This document shows positions 1 to 14,023 of a DNA stretch of 64,000 bases, piece by piece. Below the pieces are notes generated by a model. The model was given only the letters and a program-made list of their open reading frames with translations. It was not told where the DNA came from and made no database searches. The DNA is from a virus. Location of the stretch: IMG/VR virus record IMGVR_UViG_3300031963_005661, positions 1 through 64,000 of that record; one strand, written 5' to 3'. The position numbers and the translations under genes are program-made. Numbering within the stretch: the stretch's first letter is position 1; each line of letters opens with the position of its first letter.

Positions 1-1591
1 TAGGACGATTTGCGAAGAATGATGCGAGGTTTGCATATTGCCAACGACCTGCGTATCCATTTACGAATGTGTATTGAATATTGTAGAACTCATTGTGAGT
101 ACCAGCGGTAAGGGTATGCTTCCCCATAGACCACGTGAGATTGTTGGTCACTTCATAGGTGCGAACTTTGGTACCATACACCACCCCTTCACGGTCACTA
201 CCTGCATTGATTTGACCAAACTGAATATCTTGGATTTCAATTTGTGGTGCGAACACATCACCATATGGATTTCTGTGGTCACGAACAAGTGAATATCCCA
301 ACAACAAACTATTGGATACTCCTGTTCCAAGTTGTGATTTCAATTCAGCAACGGTGTTGGTGGCTCTACTGAAATGGTCGAAATCTTGTGAGGCTAACTT
401 GGTAAGTGCTTGTCCACGTTCCAAGTTTCCTGCGACTGCATTGACAAGATTACTACGAACCGTCAGTATGGAGTTCCCAATATTCCAATCCACACGACCG
501 AAATACTTTTCACTATTTGCTTCAATGTCATATGCCCCAAAGGTTCCTGCATCAAAGTTCGGGACACCTGATTTTGCTGCGAATGATACAAGACTGTCAC
601 GGACCTGTTGTGCAACTGCTTCGGTTGCCAACACGCCTGGGTTGCCAGGTGCAAATAGGATAGGGTCTGTTCTACGTGCAATTTCAAAGTTCACAAAATA
701 AAACAACTTGTCCTTGATGATTGGTCCACCGACACGACCACCTGCTTGATATTCATTGAAGGTGGTTGGCATTTTACCAGAGATACCATCACCGATGAAT
801 TGTGGAACACGACCGAATGAGTAGATGGAACCTTCGGTGGTGTTGGTACCTGAACGAGTAACTGCATTCACACTACCACCTGTGAAATTACCAATCTTCA
901 CATCATATGGTGCGATGACCACCGATACTTGTTCAATCGCGTCAAGTGAGATGGGTTGTGAACGTGAAAGAGAACCAGGTGTTCCCGTTGGAACGGATGC
1001 GGTGGATTGACCTGATGATTGACTGAAACCGAACGCATCATTCGATGCTGCTCCATCAATCGTCAAGTTGTTATACCGATAGTTGGAACCCGCGAAAGAA
1101 ACCCCGTTACCTTGTGGGGTCATACGGGTCATATCTTGGAGACTACGAGATAGGGTGGGAAGCACTTGTAACTTCTCTTGATTCAGTTGTGCCACCGCAC
1201 CATCTTTACGTGCTTGTGCTGCTACGTCTGCAATAACCGATACTTGGTCTAATACAATAACAACCTTTTCCATCTCTATATCAGTTGTAGTTGCTTCACC
1301 TAAACGAACCGTTAAATTATCAGAGGACTTTGGACGGAACCCCAGTGCGGTCACCGATACTGTGTATGGACCGCCTGGTTTCAAATTGGATAAGATGAAG
1401 CGCCCTTCTGTTGTCGTTCTCGTAACAATTCGTTGATTCGTTGGAACAAACACGACTGTAACATTTGCATTTTCAATTGTACTACCTGTAACATCTTTAA
1501 CAGTACCACGAAGGATTCCGCTGGTGATTTGCGCGTAAGCGGAGGTAGACAACATCGCAGTTGCTAAAAGAATTTCCAACATTTTTCTCAT
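1..1591 (-). CDS. TonB-dependent outer-membrane receptor, Oar-like (partial, C-terminus outside window)
   Basis: Read on the minus strand from an ATG at 1591, the frame stays open to the left edge, giving 530 residues without a stop. The N-terminus is a Sec signal peptide (MRKMLEILLATAMLSTSAYA, cut before Q). A carboxypeptidase-regulatory-like beta-sandwich follows at about residues 22-110 (GILRGTVKD, GRFILSNLKPGGPYTV), then a TonB-box-like DQVSV. A plug domain follows (LQVLPTLSRSLQDMTRM, NNLTIDGA, IEQVSVVIAPYDVKIG, GGSVNAVTRSGTN), then the start of a beta-barrel (GRVDWNIG, HTLTAGTHNEFYN). The family imports substrates across the outer membrane of Gram-negative bacteria using TonB energy; Oar-type members occur in Bacteroidota, Gemmatimonadota and Myxococcota. 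Here the gene follows the phage DNA polymerase in the same direction, with phage-like composition and a phage-type upstream motif. The substrate is unknown. Such a gene is very unusual in a phage. Confidence 0.88.
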   Translation of the reverse strand, partial: MRKMLEILLATAMLSTSAYAQITSGILRGTVKDVTGSTIENANVTVVFVPTNQRIVTRTTTEGRFILSNLKPGGPYTVSVTALGFRPKSSDNLTVRLGEATTTDIEMEKVVIVLDQVSVIADVAAQARKDGAVAQLNQEKLQVLPTLSRSLQDMTRMTPQGNGVSFAGSNYRYNNLTIDGAASNDAFGFSQSSGQSTASVPTGTPGSLSRSQPISLDAIEQVSVVIAPYDVKIGNFTGGSVNAVTRSGTNTTEGSIYSFGRVPQFIGDGISGKMPTTFNEYQAGGRVGGPIIKDKLFYFVNFEIARRTDPILFAPGNPGVLATEAVAQQVRDSLVSFAAKSGVPNFDAGTFGAYDIEANSEKYFGRVDWNIGNSILTVRSNLVNAVAGNLERGQALTKLASQDFDHFSRATNTVAELKSQLGTGVSNSLLLGYSLVRDHRNPYGDVFAPQIEIQDIQFGQINAGSDREGVVYGTKVRTYEVTNNLTWSMGKHTLTAGTHNEFYNIQYTFVNGYAGRWQYANLASFFANRP

Positions 1592-1608: not shown

Positions 1609-1632
1609 CGAGCCCCGTCTGTGGGTGGCTCG
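1609..1632 (-). promoter_or_regulatory. Hairpin in the 5' leader of the TonB-dependent receptor gene
   Basis: CGAGCC and GGCTCG arms enclose a 12-base loop between the TAYTTATW motif at 1645 and the receptor start codon. No U-run follows it on the minus strand, so it does not look like an intrinsic terminator. It could be a leader structure affecting translation or mRNA stability. Confidence 0.35.
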
Positions 1633-1644
1633 ACGCTAGGGGTG

Positions 1645-1652
1645 AATAAATA
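1645..1652 (-). promoter_or_regulatory. TAYTTATW motif (putative phage promoter) before the TonB receptor gene
   Basis: TATTTATT on the minus strand, 53 bases before the ATG at 1591. It is one of 16 copies found upstream of minus-strand genes. Confidence 0.4.
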
Positions 1653-1656
1653 CATA

Positions 1657-4182
1657 TCAGAAACTAAACCATTCCTGAGCGTTCTGATTTACCTCTGTGG
1701 GGATGTTACCCCATTTTAACGCAGAATAGAAATCTTCCAGCTTCTTCTGCAATTCGTTCTCAAATAATGCATTATAATCAATATAAGTATTTACTATCTC
1801 AACGATTTCCCGCGGGTCATTATACCCCTTGACCGCCACCGCTTCGAGATTCCACGGGTTCTGTTTCAGATATAACCACTTGACCTTTTCCCCATCCGAA
1901 ATAGCTTCATACTTGTTTTGAATCTTGAAATGTTTCAACAAGGAATTATAGGTGATTGCCGCCTTTACGTGGGCGGGAGTTCCCTTACGGAAATCATTCA
2001 GCTTTCCCGTCCGTAAATCGTATTCAGAAATGTTCTTGACCGCCGTGTTTCTGGCGACATCCAGATACGACATACTATCCATTGAATCACGGAACGTCAG
2101 TACCTTCTGGTCAATCTCTTCCTTTGTTGCCTTATTCAAGATGTCTTTCATCATCTTGTTCATAAAGTCACGGAACGCCGGCGGGAAGCTGGAACGAACA
2201 ACGTCCAGTCCCTTGACCTTCATCTTATTTGCTACATCAAGATTGGATTCCAAATCATAGACCACATTCATCGCATATCGCTTCTTCGCAATCCAGATAG
2301 CGGTCTGAGCAACGGACTCACCCTTGATATACAGCCGATGATTCTTACAGAAGAACAGCTGTTCAGCCATTTCGTTATAATACTCGTTCAGCTTCTTCTC
2401 CATCGCACGAGCCAACTTGATAGTAAATTCTTTCTGCGATGCTGTTTCTGGCATTAATGGAGTTGCTGAGAAGTACAACGAATCGGTATCAATATACGTA
2501 CAATAATCTTTCTGCTCTTCCAGCTTTGAACAATACAAGTCATTGGCAAACGCCGCAGACTTCTTAATCACATCTTGACCAGAGGCGGTCACGGCAAGTG
2601 CGTTATCCAAATCGAAGAATCGGAAAATGGGAAGTCCCAACACACCATATAATGAATTCAGGAAAATCTTCTGAATGTGCTGGCGTCGGTCATAGAACTC
2701 AGCCAATTCAGCGTTTCCTTCGTTCTTATGCTTCTTCATCAGATTCTTATACTCGACACGTTCTGCGAACCACTTGTCGAGTACTTCTGGAATAATCCCC
2801 ACCGCACCCCCATTATATAGAACGCCATTGGAACTAATCATCAGACTTTCCATCTTCATATATTTCAAGAATGCTTCGCGGCTCAACCGTACCACTTCCT
2901 CATCGGTTGTACCACGAATCAAATATTCCTGCATATCACCAGCCGCATGCTTGTCCACATTCCAGTTGGTCACAAATCCAATCTTGGTTTCGGGACTGAT
3001 ATTGAGACTCATAATGATAGATGGATACAGCGATTGTAAGTCGAGGGAATAGACCCATTCATATAGACCGGGATTCGGTTCCTTCACGAACGCACCAGCG
3101 AATCCTTCTTCATCATTTTCTGCCTTGTTATCCATCATCTCACGACCACCAGCGGGTCGGTTTGTTACAATGATGCCCTTTCTATGAAGATAGGTTACAA
3201 TCGTGCCTTCCAAGAACTTCGAACTAAACCAATAATCTTCATATGAAACGTGACCCAAATGACAAATACCACGAACGAGCTCAATCAGCTTGAGCTTCTT
3301 GTCCATCTCTACGATGATGCGTACGTCTTGAAGATTGTACTCAATAAACTTCTCCAAATCATTACGGAACAATTCATCGAGCGACCCTTGATATTCGACC
3401 TTTCCCATGCCCACCTCCAACCGACCAATCGTATCTAAACGATAATTCGGCTGTTGAGTGTAGGTGAACTTCTTATATAATGTCAAATAGTCTAGCGAGG
3501 ATACGCCCGCAATCTGGTACCGACTACGGAACTTGGAATACTTAATCTTTCCAATCGGACTCAACCGACCGGCTGTATTTGGTCCACACTGCTGCTTGAT
3601 ACGATGATAGAGATATGGGATGTCGAAAAAGTCACTATTCCATCCAGTAACAATCGTCGGTCCAATCTGCTCATACAGGTCCAAAAATCCATAGAGCAAG
3701 TCCAATTCCGATGTATACATTACGACCTTAACATTATCATACTCACGACTTGGTTGAACTCCCGCCTTGTCCAGTACCAATACCGTATATTCCTGCGTCA
3801 CCGAGTCATATACCGCAATGGACGTAATTTCATTGTTCGGATTCTCAATATTTGGCACGCCATTTTCCATAGACACTTCGATGTCGAAAAACATCGTCTT
3901 ATGCCCTTGGGAAACGTTATCCTCGTTCAGATATAAATCGGTGAGCACGCGAGTCTCTTGGGGAAGGTCGCTCTCAAATAATGATGGGTCATCTCGCTTA
4001 TAGCGCTTGACCTTTGCCAACCGCACACCAGTCATGCTGATGAATTGCCCATTGCGGTCGGGCTTATACGCATAATCAAATTTATTATAAGGAATGGTCT
4101 GATACCCTAGCTCGTCATCCCATAAATGCACGGTATCGTTGCCAAATCCTTCACCACGTTCAATGTAAATTGCCTGATACAT
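1657..4182 (-). CDS. 43: Family-B DNA polymerase (T4 gp43-like replicase)
   Basis: 841 residues, close to the usual size for T4-type replicative polymerases. The 3'-5' exonuclease motifs are present: FFDIEV near 98-103, GWNSDFFDIPY near 180-190, and YNLQDVRI near 282-289. Palm motifs are complete: DLQSLYPSII (381-390), KIFLNSLYG (505-513) and YIDTDSL (563-569), so both proofreading and polymerase activities should be intact. This is the phage's main replicase. The start is supported by GGAGG six bases before the ATG and by a perfect sigma70 promoter at 4205-4233. The gene is not split by an intron, unlike some relatives. Confidence 0.97.
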   Translation of the reverse strand: MYQAIYIERGEGFGNDTVHLWDDELGYQTIPYNKFDYAYKPDRNGQFISMTGVRLAKVKRYKRDDPSLFESDLPQETRVLTDLYLNEDNVSQGHKTMFFDIEVSMENGVPNIENPNNEITSIAVYDSVTQEYTVLVLDKAGVQPSREYDNVKVVMYTSELDLLYGFLDLYEQIGPTIVTGWNSDFFDIPYLYHRIKQQCGPNTAGRLSPIGKIKYSKFRSRYQIAGVSSLDYLTLYKKFTYTQQPNYRLDTIGRLEVGMGKVEYQGSLDELFRNDLEKFIEYNLQDVRIIVEMDKKLKLIELVRGICHLGHVSYEDYWFSSKFLEGTIVTYLHRKGIIVTNRPAGGREMMDNKAENDEEGFAGAFVKEPNPGLYEWVYSLDLQSLYPSIIMSLNISPETKIGFVTNWNVDKHAAGDMQEYLIRGTTDEEVVRLSREAFLKYMKMESLMISSNGVLYNGGAVGIIPEVLDKWFAERVEYKNLMKKHKNEGNAELAEFYDRRQHIQKIFLNSLYGVLGLPIFRFFDLDNALAVTASGQDVIKKSAAFANDLYCSKLEEQKDYCTYIDTDSLYFSATPLMPETASQKEFTIKLARAMEKKLNEYYNEMAEQLFFCKNHRLYIKGESVAQTAIWIAKKRYAMNVVYDLESNLDVANKMKVKGLDVVRSSFPPAFRDFMNKMMKDILNKATKEEIDQKVLTFRDSMDSMSYLDVARNTAVKNISEYDLRTGKLNDFRKGTPAHVKAAITYNSLLKHFKIQNKYEAISDGEKVKWLYLKQNPWNLEAVAVKGYNDPREIVEIVNTYIDYNALFENELQKKLEDFYSALKWGNIPTEVNQNAQEWFSF

Positions 4183-4660: not shown

Positions 4661-5107
4661 TCACTTGTATAAATCATGCGGGACTGCCGTGGTACCCGTA
4701 GACCCAAACCCACCAACACCACGTTGGTCTGCCGATACTAACTCGTCTACTTCTTCTATATCAAAACTTACCGTAGGAATAAGAACAAGTTGTGCAATCT
4801 TTTCACCAGGCGCTATATGAACTAAGCTATCGGTTCCGTTGTGAAGAGCTATGCAAATTTCACCAATATACCCATTATCAATAACCCCAGCCACAGTAAA
4901 CAATCCTTTCTTCGTAGCCACAGAGGAGCGGTCCTTGATAATCCCACCATATCCTGCTGGAAACTGAATAGCGATTCCTGTTTTAACCACTTTCGTTTCA
5001 CTTGGAAAAATTGCAGCGCCTTCACTGGCAAATAAATCATATCCTAAATCTCCAGCGTGTGCTTTTTGTGGCGGTGTTGCATTTTGTGATAATCGTTTAA
5101 CTTTCAT
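4661..5107 (-). CDS. dut: dUTP diphosphatase (dUTPase)
   Basis: 148 residues from the ATG at 5107, chosen over an upstream in-frame start at 5137 because GGGAGG stands 11 bases before it. All five trimeric dUTPase motifs are visible: AGDLGYDLFA (I), KDRSSVA (II), VIDNGYIGEI (III), KIAQLVLIP (IV) and RGVGGFGSTG (V). It hydrolyses dUTP to dUMP and pyrophosphate, keeping uracil out of phage DNA and feeding dTMP synthesis. It sits directly after the ribonucleotide reductase and thioredoxin genes, forming a nucleotide-metabolism operon, and overlaps the preceding thioredoxin-like gene by 11 bases. Confidence 0.95.
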   Translation of the reverse strand: MKVKRLSQNATPPQKAHAGDLGYDLFASEGAAIFPSETKVVKTGIAIQFPAGYGGIIKDRSSVATKKGLFTVAGVIDNGYIGEICIALHNGTDSLVHIAPGEKIAQLVLIPTVSFDIEEVDELVSADQRGVGGFGSTGTTAVPHDLYK

Positions 5108-5493: not shown

Positions 5494-5799
5494 TCACTTG
5501 ATGCGATTTAGCTTCTGCTCTATCTTGGTCTTTTCATTCTTACCGTATAAGAATTCTCTTGTCCGGCCTTCCTTATAGAACATCAACATTGGAATAGCCT
5601 TAATTCGGTTCTTTTCTTTCAATTCTGGTTGCTCATCAACATTGACCTTATAAAAAGGAATCTCTGACTCCTTTGCTAATTCCTCTACGGTTGGTAACAT
5701 TTCGATGCAGGTTGGGCACCAAGGAGCCCAAAAATCTACGACAAAGGGTTCCTTGGATGCCAACTTTTCTTCAAACTGTTGTAACGTCAACTCCTGCAT
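5494..5799 (-). CDS. Thioredoxin
   Basis: 101 residues, a full-length small thioredoxin. The active site is WCPTC (C28-C31) after FVVDFWAP; the cis-proline is in AIPM near residue 70 and a GR pair follows. Its ATG overlaps the stop codon of the ribonucleotide reductase gene (TAATG), so the two are translationally coupled. Class II ribonucleotide reductases are recycled by thioredoxin, so this is the likely reductant. CPTC instead of CGPC should shift the redox potential. Confidence 0.9.
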   Translation of the reverse strand: MQELTLQQFEEKLASKEPFVVDFWAPWCPTCIEMLPTVEELAKESEIPFYKVNVDEQPELKEKNRIKAIPMLMFYKEGRTREFLYGKNEKTKIEQKLNRIK

Positions 5800-7649
5800 T
5801 ATTGCACCTCACACCCACCGCCACCACAAGCAACTTCACCTGCAAGGTCGGTATTATCTTCGACTTCAACTACCTTGGTTAAGTCAATCTTGTGTAAGTG
5901 ACCAACCATTTCGTTGTATTGTGCTTCATCAATATCTTCGAACGGTGCTTGCATATAGCTGTGGTCTGAGTATGGAAGAACTGACAATGCGGTGAAGTTC
6001 TCACGATTCTCCCACATCCATTCACCAACACCAACCCATTCATCTGGCTTGATGGTTACGGTGACAGATACGTTATTCTTGTTTTCACCCTTACGGTGGC
6101 CAGCCTTTACCCATTCCTTCCAGACCTTACTGGTACGAGCCAATAAGTCGAGTGCAGATTCTTGACGAGTGATAGCACCCTTTGGAGCCTTTTGTGGAAC
6201 GGAGATAACTGCTTGTTGCTTCGGCTTGAAGAATTCGTCCTCAACAATTTCTGGATGATTGTCAACCAAGTATTGGTAGATACTTTCGTTCTTTCCAACA
6301 CGGACACGACGAACATAGAAGTCGTTATGCCAAGCGTGAATACCAGAAGAAGTTCCTAATACTAGTGACGAGGTTCCTTCGGGCTTGACAGTGGTGGTTC
6401 GTGCAGCCTTGTTGGTCCCAATCACTTCCGCCACACGTGCGTTTTCTTCCTTCACAACATTAGCAGCTTCCTTCATATCCAAATTTAATACAGTACCCGA
6501 TGCAATACCCGTCATCGAAACACCGATAAGTGCTTCCTTTTCTGTGGTGCGTTTCCAAATATCACGGAGATAATGGAAGTTAGTATAACTTGCTTGAAGT
6601 GTTCCGATGAACGCTGCTGCCTTTGCACGGGCGTTGTAATCAGCTTGGTCCTTGATATCGCCAGCATTGATGGTGGTCAAGTTACAGAATTGGAACGGAC
6701 GGAGACTGATTTCTGCACAAGGATTTAATCCCCAATTTGCATCGTTCGTAAAGAAGAAGCCTGGTTCGCCTGAACCACTCATTTCAATCTTCTTCCACAA
6801 GTCTAAGAATACTTCTTGTTCAACCTTGTGACGAAGGATAACTGCTGAATTGTTTGAACGACCACGTTGTGGATTGGTTTCCCACCAGTTGCCGAACTTA
6901 CAAGTCAACATATCATCATCGTCCAAATCGAATAATGAAATCATTGCGGAACGACGAATACCACCAGACAATACTGCATCAGCGATGAAGCACAACATAT
7001 CGTGTACTTCAAGGGTACTGAGCTTATCGCCGTTTTGCTTACGGTCGAAAATCTTTTGGATATTGTGTAAGCAATCCTTGAGCGGTTCTGGACCAGGTGC
7101 CTTACCACCAGAGGTCAAGAGTAATGCGCCCTTTGGACGAACATCGCTAAAATCATAAATCGGAAGAGCCTTACCCTTCATATATGCAGCAATCATCACC
7201 TTCACTGCATCTGCCCAACCTTCGATACTGTCACCGACGAGGTAACGGCGGGACTTGGTTGGCTTATTAATTTCTGGTAACTTTTCTACGTGTGCACGCT
7301 GTACCGAATAACCTACACCTGTTCCAGAAAGAAGAAGGAACATCACTTCACTGAAAGCATCCGTGTGGTCGATTGGAAGGAAGCAGCAATTGTATAACCG
7401 AGCGTTATTGATTTCAATTGGCTTACCAGCAAATTGAAGTGAACGCATGGATGGAAGAATCTTCTTATCATATACGAATTGATATGCTGCTTCAATTTCT
7501 TGTGCGAGTTGTGGGAACTTCTTTAAATGCATCTCTTTGTTTCTATCAACTAACTCTTTCCAAGTCTCACGGCGTTGCTTCTTGGGCAAATACTTTGAGT
7601 ACTTCATAAAAGTTGTGATTTCAGAAAGAATTTTTGCTTCTAATTGCAT
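5799..7649 (-). CDS. Class II (adenosylcobalamin-dependent) ribonucleoside-triphosphate reductase
   Basis: 616 residues, similar to monomeric Lactobacillus RTPR-type enzymes. The radical site reads NPCAEI with C311 and E313, and FCNLT with C322; the 11-residue C-C spacing equals that of RTPR (C408/C419). The disulfide partner is in the NCC at 88-89. The C-terminal swinging pair is C608/C613 in ACGGGGCEVQ, as in RTPR. It converts ribonucleotides to deoxyribonucleotides using B12, without a radical-generating subunit. No nrdA/nrdB genes are seen here, which is unusual for a T4-like phage. Thioredoxin is encoded immediately downstream. GGAG precedes the ATG. The enzyme needs a host that makes or imports cobalamin. 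Confidence 0.9.
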   Translation of the reverse strand: MQLEAKILSEITTFMKYSKYLPKKQRRETWKELVDRNKEMHLKKFPQLAQEIEAAYQFVYDKKILPSMRSLQFAGKPIEINNARLYNCCFLPIDHTDAFSEVMFLLLSGTGVGYSVQRAHVEKLPEINKPTKSRRYLVGDSIEGWADAVKVMIAAYMKGKALPIYDFSDVRPKGALLLTSGGKAPGPEPLKDCLHNIQKIFDRKQNGDKLSTLEVHDMLCFIADAVLSGGIRRSAMISLFDLDDDDMLTCKFGNWWETNPQRGRSNNSAVILRHKVEQEVFLDLWKKIEMSGSGEPGFFFTNDANWGLNPCAEISLRPFQFCNLTTINAGDIKDQADYNARAKAAAFIGTLQASYTNFHYLRDIWKRTTEKEALIGVSMTGIASGTVLNLDMKEAANVVKEENARVAEVIGTNKAARTTTVKPEGTSSLVLGTSSGIHAWHNDFYVRRVRVGKNESIYQYLVDNHPEIVEDEFFKPKQQAVISVPQKAPKGAITRQESALDLLARTSKVWKEWVKAGHRKGENKNNVSVTVTIKPDEWVGVGEWMWENRENFTALSVLPYSDHSYMQAPFEDIDEAQYNEMVGHLHKIDLTKVVEVEDNTDLAGEVACGGGGCEVQ

Positions 7650-9124: not shown

Positions 9125-10154
9125 AATATCTCGCTAGTGGACCAAATGAAAAAGTAATCCATTCATCGTAATTTTGGATAGATGATATAATCTTAGTCTT
9201 AAACATCAGCTTTGTCAAGTCCGCCTTCCGAAGCGGTGGACATCCTTCTTCAAACTTATGTAAGATTTTCATCTTTGCATCAACGTTAATATCTACATCA
9301 CGTAAATTCATTAATTGCAAATTTCTATTTACAATACTACTATTATCTAAAATGTTTTCTATCAGCTTAGGCTTCTTTTTACTATCAGCATATTTTTGTT
9401 CAATCAAGTCCAAATTGACCTCAACAGTCGGGTCAGCGAACTCTGGAATATACTTTAATATTGTCTTTTCCCCAGCCCCCTTGATTCCATCAATGTTGTC
9501 ACTCTTATCTCCAAGCAGTGACCGATAGAATACAAAGTTTGACGGATGTACGCCATAGGTTTCCAGAATTATATCAATATCAAATGTCTTTTTCTTGACG
9601 GGATTATAGACCTTGACATTCTCGTTGACCATCTGCATAAAGTCTTTGTCAGTAGAATAGATGATGGATGTACCACGATTCTTCGTAACTAACTCCGACA
9701 TATAGGCAATCGCATCATCTGCTTCAATATAATCTAATGCCAAAATAGATACGGGTAAGCACTCTACCATCTCTACCAATGACACTAGTTGCCACTTCAT
9801 ATTCTCTCGTTCTTGCTCATCCGTGGTCATATCATACGAACGATTCAACCGAGTCGGTGGCTTCCGATTTGCCTTATATTCCTTATAAATCTTCCGCCGA
9901 CGTTGTGACCCACCTTTACCATCAAAGACGAGTACAACTCTGGTAGGCTTGAAATTACGAATAGCAAACCCCAAAGATTTCATAAATCCCGCCATTCCAC
10001 CGATATGATTCCCATCTTCATCTAATGTGGGAATAGCGGCATAACTCCGCATGAATGTGTTAAGGGCATCTACGATAAGGACACGGGAGTTGTATCCAGT
10101 GCCCTTATCGCTATCGAAGTTCATACTATCGAAAACCTTCAGTAAATCAGTCAT
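9111..10154 (-). CDS. rnh: 5'-3' exonuclease / RNase H (T4 Rnh, FEN-1 family)
   Basis: 347 residues of the flap-endonuclease fold: N-terminal VLIVDALNTFMRSY with the first metal-binding Asp, VVLVFDGKGGSQRRRKIYKEYK, EADDAIAYMSEL, YSTDKDFMQMV, and the helix-hairpin-helix LLGDKSDNIDGIKGAGEKT. It should remove RNA primers and flaps from lagging-strand fragments. Its ATG overlaps the end of the recombinase gene by eight bases, so it belongs to the recombination/replication operon. Confidence 0.93.
   Translation of the reverse strand: MTDLLKVFDSMNFDSDKGTGYNSRVLIVDALNTFMRSYAAIPTLDEDGNHIGGMAGFMKSLGFAIRNFKPTRVVLVFDGKGGSQRRRKIYKEYKANRKPPTRLNRSYDMTTDEQERENMKWQLVSLVEMVECLPVSILALDYIEADDAIAYMSELVTKNRGTSIIYSTDKDFMQMVNENVKVYNPVKKKTFDIDIILETYGVHPSNFVFYRSLLGDKSDNIDGIKGAGEKTILKYIPEFADPTVEVNLDLIEQKYADSKKKPKLIENILDNSSIVNRNLQLMNLRDVDINVDAKMKILHKFEEGCPPLRKADLTKLMFKTKIISSIQNYDEWITFSFGPLARYYGKS
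9190..9218 (-). promoter_or_regulatory. Possible internal sigma70-like promoter for the gp41 helicase gene
   Basis: TTGACA, 17 bases, TAAGAT inside the 3' part of rnh, 66 bases before the helicase ATG. The spacer equals that of the other early promoters here, but the -10 is weaker and the site lies in coding sequence. Confidence 0.4.
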
Positions 10155-11310
10155 TTAATAGTTGCTTTTTAGATGGTGATACCTCGTCCTCATCCTCTGC
10201 TGATTCCTTGTTGACCGCAGATGGGTCGAAGTCCTTCTCGTACTTCATAATCATCGCTTCACAAATCTTATCGTACAAGTCAGCCTTCCGTTCTTGGTCA
10301 GCTTCAAGGAACGCTGGGAATTCCTTACTTTGGAACTTCTCATCATTGTATGAATACCATGCACCAGATTGCTTGATGATGCCGTTCTCCTTCAAGACAT
10401 CCAACCAACTGCTGTAATCATCAATACCACGATTGAAGTAAATATTGAATTCAGCTTCACGATATGGCGGGCCCAAACGATTCTTGGTGATGACCGCCTT
10501 CGTAGTGATACCAATGATGTTCCCAGCCGAATCCTTCAACTTACCGACTTGTGACAAACGAATACGAGTCGAAGCGTGGAATCCGATTGCCTTACCACCA
10601 GAAGTGGTGTAGGGGTCAGAGAACGCAGGAGCGTTCATCTTCAAACGGAGCTGATTGGTGAATACGAGAGCAATCTTTTCACGACCCAAAAGATTCGTAA
10701 TCTTTCTCATCGCCTTACTGATAATGATGGACTTTGCCGTTGCGTATCCATCCTTATTGAAGTCCGCAGCCATTTCCGTCTTGGTCGAAGCGGCGGCAAC
10801 AGAGTCAACAACGATAGTGACCAACTTATCCTTCTTTGCAGCGGAACGAACCTTCTCGATGATGTTCACAATAGAATCAAAGATATCTTCAACCGTATCG
10901 TGCTGAACGTAGACCAACTTCTTCATATCTACACCAACGGCAGAGAAGAATTCATCATTGACCGCATTTTCGGTATCAATAAGAACCGCAACACCACCAC
11001 GCTTCTGTGTGGTAGCAATAAGTTGTGCACCGACCAACGACTTACCCGATGCTTCTAATCCCGTCAACTCTGTGATACGACCGGCGGCAATACCACCGTT
11101 CGGACGATTACTGATTGCGATATCCAACATCGTATTTCCCGTTGAAATGAAATCGGTCAAATCAGTCGGGGTTTCCTCTTCTCCATCAAGGAAGTAGGCA
11201 ACTTGTCCATCCTTGTACAACTTGTTCAAGCTATCTGCGATAACTTGGGCCAGTTCATCGCGGTCAGCGGATGGCACTGGCTTCTTTGGTGATTTTGTTT
11301 CCTTAGCCAT
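10147..11310 (-). CDS. uvsX: UvsX/RecA-like recombinase
   Basis: 387 residues. RecA-family ATPase core: Walker A GLEASGKS (84-91), AVLIDTENA with the post-Walker acidic residue, Walker B TIVVDSVAA (165-173), and loop-2 context FTNQLRLKMNAP. The C-terminus is acidic (SAEDEDEVSP). It forms filaments on ssDNA for recombination-dependent replication and repair, working with gp32, whose gene lies immediately upstream. SD AAAGGA precedes the ATG. Confidence 0.95.
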   Translation of the reverse strand: MAKETKSPKKPVPSADRDELAQVIADSLNKLYKDGQVAYFLDGEEETPTDLTDFISTGNTMLDIAISNRPNGGIAAGRITELTGLEASGKSLVGAQLIATTQKRGGVAVLIDTENAVNDEFFSAVGVDMKKLVYVQHDTVEDIFDSIVNIIEKVRSAAKKDKLVTIVVDSVAAASTKTEMAADFNKDGYATAKSIIISKAMRKITNLLGREKIALVFTNQLRLKMNAPAFSDPYTTSGGKAIGFHASTRIRLSQVGKLKDSAGNIIGITTKAVITKNRLGPPYREAEFNIYFNRGIDDYSSWLDVLKENGIIKQSGAWYSYNDEKFQSKEFPAFLEADQERKADLYDKICEAMIMKYEKDFDPSAVNKESAEDEDEVSPSKKQLLND

Positions 11311-11326
11311 AATGTTCCTTTATGTA

Positions 11327-11379
11327 ACAAAACACGCAGGGGCTAGGTAGTTTTAAGGCTACCTAGCACCACAGCGTGT
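11327..11379 (-). terminator. Rho-independent terminator after gene 32
   Basis: Nested stems CTAGGTAG/CTACCTAG and, outside them, ACACGC/GCGTGT, then TTTTGTT on the minus strand. It lies between the gp32 stop and uvsX, and would let gp32 be made in excess as in T4. Confidence 0.8.
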
Positions 11380-11389
11380 CTTTGGTTAA

Positions 11390-12184
11390 TTAATCGTTGA
11401 ACAGCTCGTCAAACGCATCAACGGCGTTCTTGACGTTCTCCTTTGGAGCGGCAGCGGTAGCCGTAACAGCCTTCGGCTCCTCAGCCTCACGAGCGGGAGT
11501 GATGACCGCATTATCAGGGTCAAGATACTTCTCAAGCGTGACCTTCAGCTCGTTGTAGGTCGGCTCCGTATAAAGCTCCTTGATATCGGGCTGAGTGGTC
11601 ATCCACAGATTCGCCTGTGAAGCGTCCGACGAAAGCGGAGTCTGTGACGGCTTGACCTTTACCGAAGTCTTGGCGAAACTGGTATCCGACTTCTCCTTCG
11701 GAATGTACTCAACTACGATGTCACGACCAGTCTTAACATCGGTGATATCGCCGTAATCGGGGTCAGAGATGTAGGAAAGAAGTTCCTGATAGACCGTCTT
11801 ACCGAACGAGTAGAAGCGAACACCCTTATCCTCTTCACCACGAACGATGACAGGAATGTAGGTACGGAGCTTCGGCATAAACGGACGAGCCTCCGCATAC
11901 CGAGCCTTCGCATCGGGCTCACGCTGGGTATCATTCCGAACGGAATCAGCAAACTCCGCAATCGGGTCACGATTACCATACGAGAGAGGTGAAAGATAAG
12001 TCTTGTTGCCGAGATAGTGGAAGTAAAGTTCGATAAAGGGATTCGCGGGGTTATCCTTCCACGGGACGATACGGATGACCGTCTTGCCTTCCTTGGGCTT
12101 CCAGATAGCGGTATCGCGGTCCCCACCGCCGGTACGCTTGAAACTGTTCAGCTTGCTCTTTAGTGCATTAATGTCTAACGCCAT
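11390..12184 (-). CDS. 32: Single-stranded DNA-binding protein (T4 gp32-like)
   Basis: 264 residues. A basic N-terminus (INALKSKLNSFKRT) resembles the cooperative LAST region of gp32. The OB-fold follows (KTVIRIVPWKDNP, FIELYFHYLGNKTYLSP), and the C-terminal tail is acidic (VDAFDELFND), as needed for partner binding. The protein has no cysteine at all, so the zinc module of T4 gp32 is absent. A near-perfect sigma70 promoter stands upstream, AAGGAG precedes the ATG and a terminator follows: a self-contained, strongly expressed early gene. Confidence 0.92.
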   Translation of the reverse strand: MALDINALKSKLNSFKRTGGGDRDTAIWKPKEGKTVIRIVPWKDNPANPFIELYFHYLGNKTYLSPLSYGNRDPIAEFADSVRNDTQREPDAKARYAEARPFMPKLRTYIPVIVRGEEDKGVRFYSFGKTVYQELLSYISDPDYGDITDVKTGRDIVVEYIPKEKSDTSFAKTSVKVKPSQTPLSSDASQANLWMTTQPDIKELYTEPTYNELKVTLEKYLDPDNAVITPAREAEEPKAVTATAAAPKENVKNAVDAFDELFND

Positions 12185-12251
12185 TGTACTTCTCCTTGTG
12201 TTTAGAGTGTTTAGGGTGTTTATAACAAGTAGTTTACCCCAAGTGTCTTGA

Positions 12252-12280
12252 AGTATACTACCAAAAATTTAGTTTGTCAA
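12252..12280 (-). promoter_or_regulatory. Sigma70-type (early) promoter for gene 32
   Basis: TTGACA, 17 bases, TATACT on the minus strand, in the 103-base spacer upstream of the gp32 gene. Confidence 0.8.
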
Positions 12281-12287
12281 GTGCAGT

Positions 12288-12689
12288 TTAGAAATTCAGA
12301 ATTTGTTGTATTTTAGTACGAACTATTTTTAATTGGCCGTGGGCCGTAACTAGAATAGAATTCTTTAATTCATCCCAATTTACCCTATACGCCTTATCAA
12401 TAATACCACCATTCTTACTTGCGATAAGAGCATTTAATGCATTAATGGTGTATATTGTATTGGTTTGCTTTTTCCGATGTACGGAAATAGTGGAAGCCGG
12501 AGGTTGGTGTCCAGCCTTCAATGACCCCACAACAATATTATATGTTAAAATTAGTTGATTGGCGTCATCAACATTTTCTAACACATAGATATTATTAAAA
12601 GCCAATTTATAGGAATCTTGGATAGCCTTTACGTGCTGTTCCAATTCTGCGGCTGGAATAAACGTGCAAAGTAACTGAGTTTCGTTCAT
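12288..12689 (-). CDS. Conserved-looking hypothetical protein
   Basis: 133 residues, not recognised. It is predicted soluble, without signal peptide or membrane segment. A basic stretch (SVHRKKQTNT) is followed by a helical segment (TINALNALIASKNGG) and VNWDELKNSILV, so nucleic-acid binding is possible but unproven. It lies between the family-A polymerase-like gene and gp32, in the replication block. The upstream spacer carries a TACTTATT motif. Confidence 0.75.
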   Translation of the reverse strand: MNETQLLCTFIPAAELEQHVKAIQDSYKLAFNNIYVLENVDDANQLILTYNIVVGSLKAGHQPPASTISVHRKKQTNTIYTINALNALIASKNGGIIDKAYRVNWDELKNSILVTAHGQLKIVRTKIQQILNF

Positions 12690-12720
12690 ATGATACTCTT
12701 AAGAAGCGTTAATCACTTCA

Positions 12721-12728
12721 AATAAGTA
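12721..12728 (-). promoter_or_regulatory. TAYTTATW motif before the hypothetical gene at 12689
   Basis: TACTTATT on the minus strand, 31 bases upstream of the ATG, preceded by ACAATTTGA. Confidence 0.3.
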
Positions 12729-12748
12729 TCAAATTGTCTTTGATAAAC

Positions 12749-14023
12749 TTATATTTTATGTAAGAAAAGATTATCGTAATTAGCCCCACGATACTGACGA
12801 ACAGGAAATCCACCGGCGCTCAATATATTGGCCACGTTTTCCATAGAATCCAATTCAGTATTTGGGACATCCAATAGAATTGCATCATACGTGTATAGAA
12901 TGACTCTAGATTCATGCATTCCAAGGAAATTACAGACATCATACACCCGTTGGATGGCTTCTTCGGTTTCCGTCAACTGCATCATATAGTTGAATACCTT
13001 GTTCTTGGAAGCGTCCACCAAGGTCACTTTGCGACCCGTTCCTGACAATACAAATCCATTCTGACGGTATTCTTCCCACAGTTTGGAGGAATACCCCTTA
13101 ATCTTTTGGAAGAACTCTACGCCACCCGTATCGTCGGACTGACCATACATCAAGGCAAAGGTACGGGCCTTAGACTCCTCATACTGCTCTTCGGTCACTT
13201 CATCCACTCCATAATACTGCTGAGCGAGATAGGTGTGAAGTGAGGTGGGTGGGAGTTGGTAATCCATTAACTTCCCAGCCAACCGCAAGTGGAACGCCTC
13301 ATAATCGAACTGAACCAATGTTCCGTTTTCCCCGAACCGACTGACAAACTTCTCACGGGAACCATCGTTTTTGTTCAGAGCGGCAAAGTTGATGCCACCG
13401 AAGGCATTACTTGGACGGCCGGTAGACGTATAGATGTTATAATCGGAATATACGAAGTTATTATCGGTCGTATACAATCCAGACTTCTCAATACTGGCCA
13501 ACGTCGGAATCGTTATCTGGTTGATGAACTGGAACGCCGAGTCGTGTTCCGTGGACTCATATCGCTTGTAGAGATGTTCGCAATGTTGAAGGAACGCCTC
13601 TGCGGTTTCCACCCATGAAGTCAACGGGATACTATAGTGAAGATTCTTGAACTTGAATTGATTTTTAATCTGATGAATACCCATCGTATAGAATTCACGA
13701 TAGATAGGAATCACATCATAGTTAAGGTGTAGTATCGTAGCCAAATCTACAATGTTTACTGCATTAGTCAGATGACGCAGTTCCTTCTGGTGAAGGGTAA
13801 TTAACTTGTGTGCACGCTTCAAATCCATCTCAAAGTGTGGAGCGTCTGGATGGTTCACGGATACGGTATAGAACGTTCCATCGTCAAAACGAAAATGGAG
13901 TGATGACAACTTGTTCTGTACGGGATGCAGAAACGCATCAACCGCCACGGGATAGACGTACGCCGTCTCTTCCTCTAAGCGGTTGGTGAGTTGTATAATA
14001 TCGTCTAGTCGCGTGATAACCAT
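12749..14023 (-). CDS. Family-A DNA polymerase-like protein (polymerase domain only, divergent)
   Basis: 424 residues. Landmarks of the PolA palm and fingers are visible: TSTGRPSN (200-206) like the TGRLSS motif; motif A LVQFDYEAFHLRLAG with D240; an O-helix KARTFALMYG with K285, Y293 and G294; motif C LYTYDAILLDV with D380. The two metal-binding aspartates and the O-helix Lys/Tyr are kept. The Glu of motif A is His, the His-Asp-Glu of motif C is Tyr-Asp-Ala, and the O-helix Arg is missing. No 3'-5' or 5'-3' exonuclease domain precedes it. Since the genome has a full PolB replicase, this may be a specialised (translesion, gap-filling or primer) enzyme. A sigma70-type promoter lies upstream. 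Confidence 0.75.
   Translation of the reverse strand: MVITRLDDIIQLTNRLEEETAYVYPVAVDAFLHPVQNKLSSLHFRFDDGTFYTVSVNHPDAPHFEMDLKRAHKLITLHQKELRHLTNAVNIVDLATILHLNYDVIPIYREFYTMGIHQIKNQFKFKNLHYSIPLTSWVETAEAFLQHCEHLYKRYESTEHDSAFQFINQITIPTLASIEKSGLYTTDNNFVYSDYNIYTSTGRPSNAFGGINFAALNKNDGSREKFVSRFGENGTLVQFDYEAFHLRLAGKLMDYQLPPTSLHTYLAQQYYGVDEVTEEQYEESKARTFALMYGQSDDTGGVEFFQKIKGYSSKLWEEYRQNGFVLSGTGRKVTLVDASKNKVFNYMMQLTETEEAIQRVYDVCNFLGMHESRVILYTYDAILLDVPNTELDSMENVANILSAGGFPVRQYRGANYDNLFLHKI

Follow-up and report, generated by a model that had tools for sequence, protein, structure and literature searches.

A T4-like phage genome whose assembled end falls within a gene for an outer-membrane receptor raises the question of whether the virus owns this receptor and, if so, for what purpose. 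The window analysed here, a stretch of 64,000 nucleotides, starts at base 1 of record G000 (IMG/VR IMGVR_UViG_3300031963_005661; 90,856 bases). Its first frame (2-1591, minus strand) begins with ATG, encodes 530 amino acids and is open at the contig end according to the ORF listing. G000 is a T4-like phage, with PHROG matches to terminase, portal, major head protein, tail sheath, ssDNA-binding protein, UvsX, helicase and dUTPase. A preliminary description, made from the letters alone, had placed the receptor frame 65 bases behind a DNA polymerase gene (polB) of the same direction and downstream of a phage-type motif. The spacing corresponds to positions 1592-1656, and the motif, TATTTATT at 1645-1652 on the coding strand, is real in G000. 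Its core TATTTAT occurs 29 times on the coding strand of window positions 1-64000 vs three times on the other strand and lies within 120 nt upstream of 13 genes, and may thus act as a promoter in this phage. Feature coordinates are given in Table 1.

Table 1 Features of the receptor locus in the window and mini-TonB genes in contigs of marine phages.
Feature	Position	Strand	Basis
Type I TBDT gene (Oar-like), residues 1-530 of ~1,045	2..1591	-	ORF, Pfam, full-length homologues
Signal peptide (MRKMLEILLATAMLSTSAYAQ)	1526..1591	-	By eye; model has helix at residues 2-12
CarboxypepD_reg N-terminal domain, residues 27-108	1268..1513	-	Pfam PF13620
TonB-box-like segment (putative), residues ~112-121	1229..1258	-	Alignment with bacterial boxes
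Plug domain, residues ~133-245	857..1195	-	Model and alignment
Beta-barrel, first part	2..856	-	PF25183, structure model, Foldseek
Leader hairpin CGAGCC-N12-GGCTCG	1609..1632	-	Covariation, model matches
Promoter-like motif TATTTATT	1645..1652	-	Strand bias of TATTTAT
Family B DNA polymerase polB (T4 gp43-like)	1657..4182	-	Pfam
dUTPase	4661..5107	-	phrog_135
Thioredoxin-like protein (WAPWCPTC)	5494..5799	-	By eye; without PHROG match
Adenosylcobalamin-dependent (class II) ribonucleotide reductase (RNR)	5799..7649	-	RNR-II_ins_dom; TIGR02505 below cut-off
Mini-TonB	L349:12494-12799	-	TonB C-terminal domain
Mini-TonB	L350:7946-8260	+	TonB C-terminal domain
Mini-TonB	L351:1498-1866	-	TonB C-terminal domain
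Mini-TonB	L353:1498-1833	-	TonB C-terminal domain

The frame is the 5' portion of a TonB-dependent receptor (TBDT) gene truncated by the contig end. Pfam identifies a carboxypeptidase-regulatory-like domain at residues 27-108 (CarboxypepD_reg, E 9e-19) and the OMP_b-brl_4 barrel family (E 5e-16), both above cut-off. The complete gene, termed type I, encodes 1,045-1,051 amino acids in relatives and ends with the usual C-terminal F. Its N-terminal PF13620 domain and Oar-type barrel PF25183, again both above cut-off, place it in the Oar-like subclass. A signal peptide is recognizable by eye in every full-length copy, and a putative TonB box lines up with '..LSEVVVTG' of bacterial boxes. PF07715 matched the plugs of the type II and III receptors described below, and the type I plug was assigned from the structure model and alignment alone. 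This model, of moderate confidence (pLDDT 72.5), retrieved TBDTs as its best Foldseek matches, and the barrel is presumed to have the 22 strands of the family; a PDB sequence search returned nothing beyond a carboxypeptidase D domain. The parts that had been read from the translation, i.e., signal peptide, carboxypeptidase-regulatory-like domain, TonB-box-like segment, plug and start of a barrel, are recovered, the TonB box as a putative segment placed by alignment. This is also the set of parts shared by the Oar-type transporters (Myxococcus xanthus Oar and Bacteroidota homologues), from which the present protein differs in being phage-encoded, in its ~40% identity to any bacterial sequence found and in its tie to replication genes.

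An IMG/VR scan with type I revealed the same protein, at 73-100% identity, in 11 further contigs. The gene is complete in nine of them and forms an intact frame of 1,045-1,051 amino acids in eight; the copy of L004 (in G010; 10001-13138) carries a single in-frame TAG at codon 176. Phage genes flank the receptor gene on both sides in these relatives, in keeping with the preliminary description of a receptor encoded in a T4-like phage genome. Nine other contigs run through the receptor gene; wherever they extend further, phage genes continue, and the bacterial chromosome that might have followed does not appear. Three sites are occupied: behind polB in the window's lineage (A), between RNR and a thioredoxin-like gene in lineage B, and, in L004, downstream of phoH and an exonuclease gene. 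Three contigs (G000, G005 and G011) end within the receptor gene, so that the break at the window edge is taken as an assembly effect. The same three ends are what might suggest an assembly chimera or host contamination; the probability of either is virtually nil, and both were ruled out because the full gene lies between phage genes in independent contigs, assembled repeatedly and from other metagenomes, which represent several lineages and three different sites. The TBDT is established as phage-owned. Matches in INPHARED were confined to unannotated faecal fragments labelled phage and uncultured megaphages.

The gene evolves as phage genes do. Pairwise dN/dS values of type I are 0.05-0.11, compared with 0.05-0.09 for polB and 0.05-0.10 for RNR in the same genomes. 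Between lineages A and B the receptor is 74% identical in amino acid sequence (26% different), polB 70% identical (30% different) and RNR 17% different; since the divergence of the receptor tracks that of polB, it has resided in the phages about as long as the polymerase. As a gene of host type that is fixed in phage genomes and kept under selection, type I is a phage auxiliary metabolic gene. The plug is 94% identical between the two lineages, and within the barrel the long loops (76%) are as conserved as the strands (78%), with no hypervariable outer loops. As judged from these comparisons, such conservation of plug and loops favours an unchanging ligand over an arms race. The type III receptor is somewhat looser (dN/dS 0.09-0.22 vs 0.05-0.12 for its RNR) and clearly under purifying selection.

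Related phages carry unlike receptors in the same surroundings. The polB of L018 shares 88% identity with that of the window and 95% with that of L011; the slot behind it holds a different TBDT of 905 amino acids (type II; Plug, TonB_dep_Rec barrel and OMP_b-brl_3). Marine relatives, with polB ~45% identical, carry a third type of ~910 amino acids (type III; CarbopepD_reg_2 and Plug) between RNR and polB. At least 184 contigs encode a relative of type III, and among the best 77 with an upstream gene, this gene is RNR on the same strand in 72, the gaps being mostly 30-90 nt. Starting instead from RNR, and considering the 80 closest of 597 RNR loci (71 with downstream sequence), a TBDT comes next in 63 of 71; as only the closest loci were covered, phages farther removed may show a lower rate. 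RNR is followed by glutamine synthetase and then a TBDT in 3/71, and by glutamine synthetase in 5/71, with polB directly after in three of the latter (Pfam). Examples of glutamine synthetase replacing or preceding the TBDT are L325:7022-8008 and L304:7018-8022. The alternation of TBDT and glutamine synthetase behind RNR marks the slot as a place for nutrient-supply genes. In L187, L207 and L232, type III lies behind a membrane-protein gene in another phage context rather than behind RNR; in L027 (883-2320 and 3612-4562), RNR and the preceding gene are interrupted by homing-endonuclease-like insertions recognized by eye. Three unlike TBDT types share one replication cluster among related phages, to which such receptors have been recruited repeatedly.

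A conserved leader separates polB from the type I or II gene and consists of GCGTC, a 6-bp stem with a 12-nt loop, and GGTTAWAGAGA. It precedes the type I genes of lineage A and the type II genes, and in L004 it accompanies the receptor gene although the upstream gene differs. Among seven leader sequences, four of them closely related, compensatory double changes occur at four of the six stem pairs, and 97.6% of cells pair vs at most 59.5% in slid controls. The exact pattern occurs eight times in all viral contigs, corresponding to the seven leaders and one chance match within a coding region of L149, which was rejected. Comparison with Rfam gave no credible match, the leader is absent from 396 Bacteroidota genomes, and it was not found in lineage B or in the marine phages. 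Similarity between types I and II spans the leader and the signal peptide and then ends, a pattern that suggests exchange of receptors beneath a common 5' module.

A possible partner of these receptors is encoded in four marine T4-like phages (G711, G712, G721 and G741). This mini-TonB of ~101-122 amino acids lacks a membrane anchor and a linker, and its TonB C-terminal domain exceeds the Pfam cut-off; three of the four as called also show an apparent signal peptide, and in three of four the gene adjoins that of the ssDNA-binding protein. From what is known of TonB biology, the mini-TonB should not transmit energy by itself; competition for TonB boxes, or assistance in targeting the phage receptor, are conceivable functions. 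No TonB_C domain was found in the lineage of the window. Type IV pilin-like proteins with an N-methylation motif are encoded next to the mini-TonB in L349 (14055-14492 and 14525-15172, both minus strand), where several signal-peptide proteins also lie nearby. In L350, a CobS-like ATPase (6068-7243; phrog_249, porphyrin biosynthesis) is near the mini-TonB.

Clues to the substrate come from cellular relatives, which for types II and III were searched in Bacteroidota; the nearest cellular receptors found belong to this phylum. Bacterial relatives of type III, from 198 Bacteroidota genomes, are 46-52% identical over the full length. A PF01663 nucleotide pyrophosphatase/phosphodiesterase gene directly adjoins them in 13 of 20 loci, a number in which shared ancestry lowers the count of independent cases. 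As those genomes hold about one strong full-length PF01663 gene each, adjacency by chance would be expected in roughly one genome in a thousand. The best bacterial matches to type I are ~40% identical. In the tree, the phage type I clade is placed beside the L052/L142-144 group at high support, both branches being long; this group has a PHO4 phosphate transporter gene 10 bp downstream, clustered with radical SAM and methyltransferase genes. Phosphate genes are nearby in just 8 of 80 type I bacterial loci, which show no other consistent neighbours. Bacterial relatives of type II (~35%) mostly have, as the next gene downstream, one that is lipoprotein-like and without a Pfam match. In Flavobacterium johnsoniae, phosphate starvation induces TBDTs including Fjoh_3841 (pf13620 only), Fjoh_0545 (pf07715, pf13715 and pf14905), which is followed by lipoprotein FII, and Fjoh_1368 and Fjoh_3857 (pf07715 and pf13715) (PMC8115612). 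The architectures of these Pus and phosphate-starvation TBDTs are those of phage types I, II and III, a likeness by Pfam architecture only. Unlike the Pus systems (PMC8115612), the phage genes have no phosphatase or lipoprotein gene beside them; Pus-type linkage to a phosphatase, phosphodiesterase or Pi transporter is seen in the bacterial relatives and not in the phages themselves.

Type I may be viewed as a working, phage-owned outer-membrane transporter in the nucleotide-and-replication module of the phage. We infer that the receptor would be made during infection, inserted into the host outer membrane and powered by host TonB-ExbB-ExbD. It would import phosphorus-rich molecules, such as nucleotides, nucleic-acid pieces, other organic phosphate or phosphate, to feed dNTP synthesis by the adjacent RNR and polymerase. 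Placement next to RNR suggests that the host is made to import something the virus needs for building DNA, and the receptor probably helps to supply DNA synthesis. The best-supported guess for the substrate, with about an even chance of being correct, is phosphorus or nucleotides; the assignment is drawn solely from the neighbours of distant bacterial relatives of ~40-50% identity. Taken as a whole, the account of a phage TBDT importing phosphorus-rich molecules for DNA synthesis is equally balanced between right and wrong. Of the roles proposed in the preliminary description, nutrient uptake fits best, and the cobalamin it gave as an example is less supported than phosphorus or nucleotides.

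Cobalamin uptake, in which the TBDT would import B12 for the adenosylcobalamin-dependent RNR, is the main rival of the phosphorus reading. In the window RNR the RNR-II insertion domain is recognized, and the RTPR model TIGR02505 is its best NCBIfam match, below the cut-off that the marine RNR clears, so that the coupling involves a B12-dependent enzyme; lineages A and B and the marine phages all have RNR of this type. This coupling, the tightest linkage seen in the phages, is real and much stronger in the marine relatives than the window alone could show. The receptor directly downstream of RNR in 72/77 marine contigs and in freshwater lineage B, and the CobS-like gene beside the mini-TonB of one marine phage, also agree with this possibility, as does the proposal that cobS of cyanophages serves a B12-dependent RNR (PMC2984593). 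It is nevertheless considered unlikely. No Rfam match to a cobalamin riboswitch was found in G000 or beside any of the 29 bacterial relatives tested, and neither such a riboswitch nor nearby btu genes point to a BtuB-type transporter. The bacterial neighbours are instead phosphodiesterase or phosphate genes, the slot is also used by glutamine synthetase, which is unconnected to B12, and the lineage A receptor lies several genes away from RNR.

TBDTs commonly serve as phage receptors, and exclusion of rival phages had also been put forward: the receptor or mini-TonB would tie up TonB or alter the surface, thereby blocking other phages or bacteriocins. Unlike receptors at one locus in close relatives would suit such a role, and the anchorless TonB_C domain of four marine phages could compete for TonB boxes. 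Conservation of the plug and outer loops makes this role less favoured, however, since loops no more variable than strands and dN/dS values low throughout are unlike an arms race. The receptor genes are placed among nucleotide metabolism, the window's lineage yielded no TonB_C domain, and a surface change leaves the RNR coupling unexplained; we regard the idea as quite improbable. Export of a protein or signal, as by the Myxococcus Oar needed for PopC secretion, would be consistent with an N-terminal domain of the same class as in Oar (PMC6434023). TonB-dependent protein secretion has been shown for M. xanthus Oar alone (PMC6434023), export by Oar is known for a single protein, and no candidate substrate gene is linked to the phage receptor, which renders export very improbable indeed.

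The host may not be a typical member of the phylum of the nearest receptors. Shine-Dalgarno sites precede 28 of 58 G000 genes (6.5% expected at random) and genes at 3 of 34 Bacteroidota loci, a difference that makes a Bacteroidota host of the usual kind doubtful; a search for tRNAs as a host clue found none.

A SusC-like TBDT in megaphages Mar_Mega_1 and LR745206 was interpreted as an auxiliary metabolic gene (PMC9723777). This is likewise a TBDT in a phage genome, but as a single annotation, whereas the T4-like phages described here have three families, a fixed RNR/polB place, selection data, a leader RNA and the mini-TonB. A literature text search for phage-encoded TonB or TBDTs, with most subscription papers and preprints outside its coverage, returned nothing besides PMC9723777, and no earlier description of the RNR coupling, swap locus, leader hairpin or mini-TonB was found. 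TBDT-like proteins already stand unnamed in PHROGs, as phrog_5687 (unknown function) matches parts of types II and III, and not type I. Host-derived cobS, phoH and pstS of T4-like cyanophages are thought to lift cofactor or phosphate limitation in infection (PMC2984593). None of these is an outer-membrane receptor, unlike the phage TBDTs.

A broader scenario, tentative and on balance doubtful, is that a large T4-like clade remodels host outer-membrane uptake. Exchangeable TBDTs would occupy a fixed place in the nucleotide module and stand behind a dedicated RNA leader in one freshwater lineage. Some members would also secrete a TonB domain, directing host TonB to the phage receptor at the expense of host receptors. 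To our knowledge, known phage nutrient genes mostly work within the cell or periplasm. If import by a phage-owned receptor is true, infected cells would be re-equipped to import building blocks from outside. This amounts to a testable claim about the factor that limits DNA synthesis by phages of lakes and seas, and it would affect how TBDT counts and transcripts in viromes are read.
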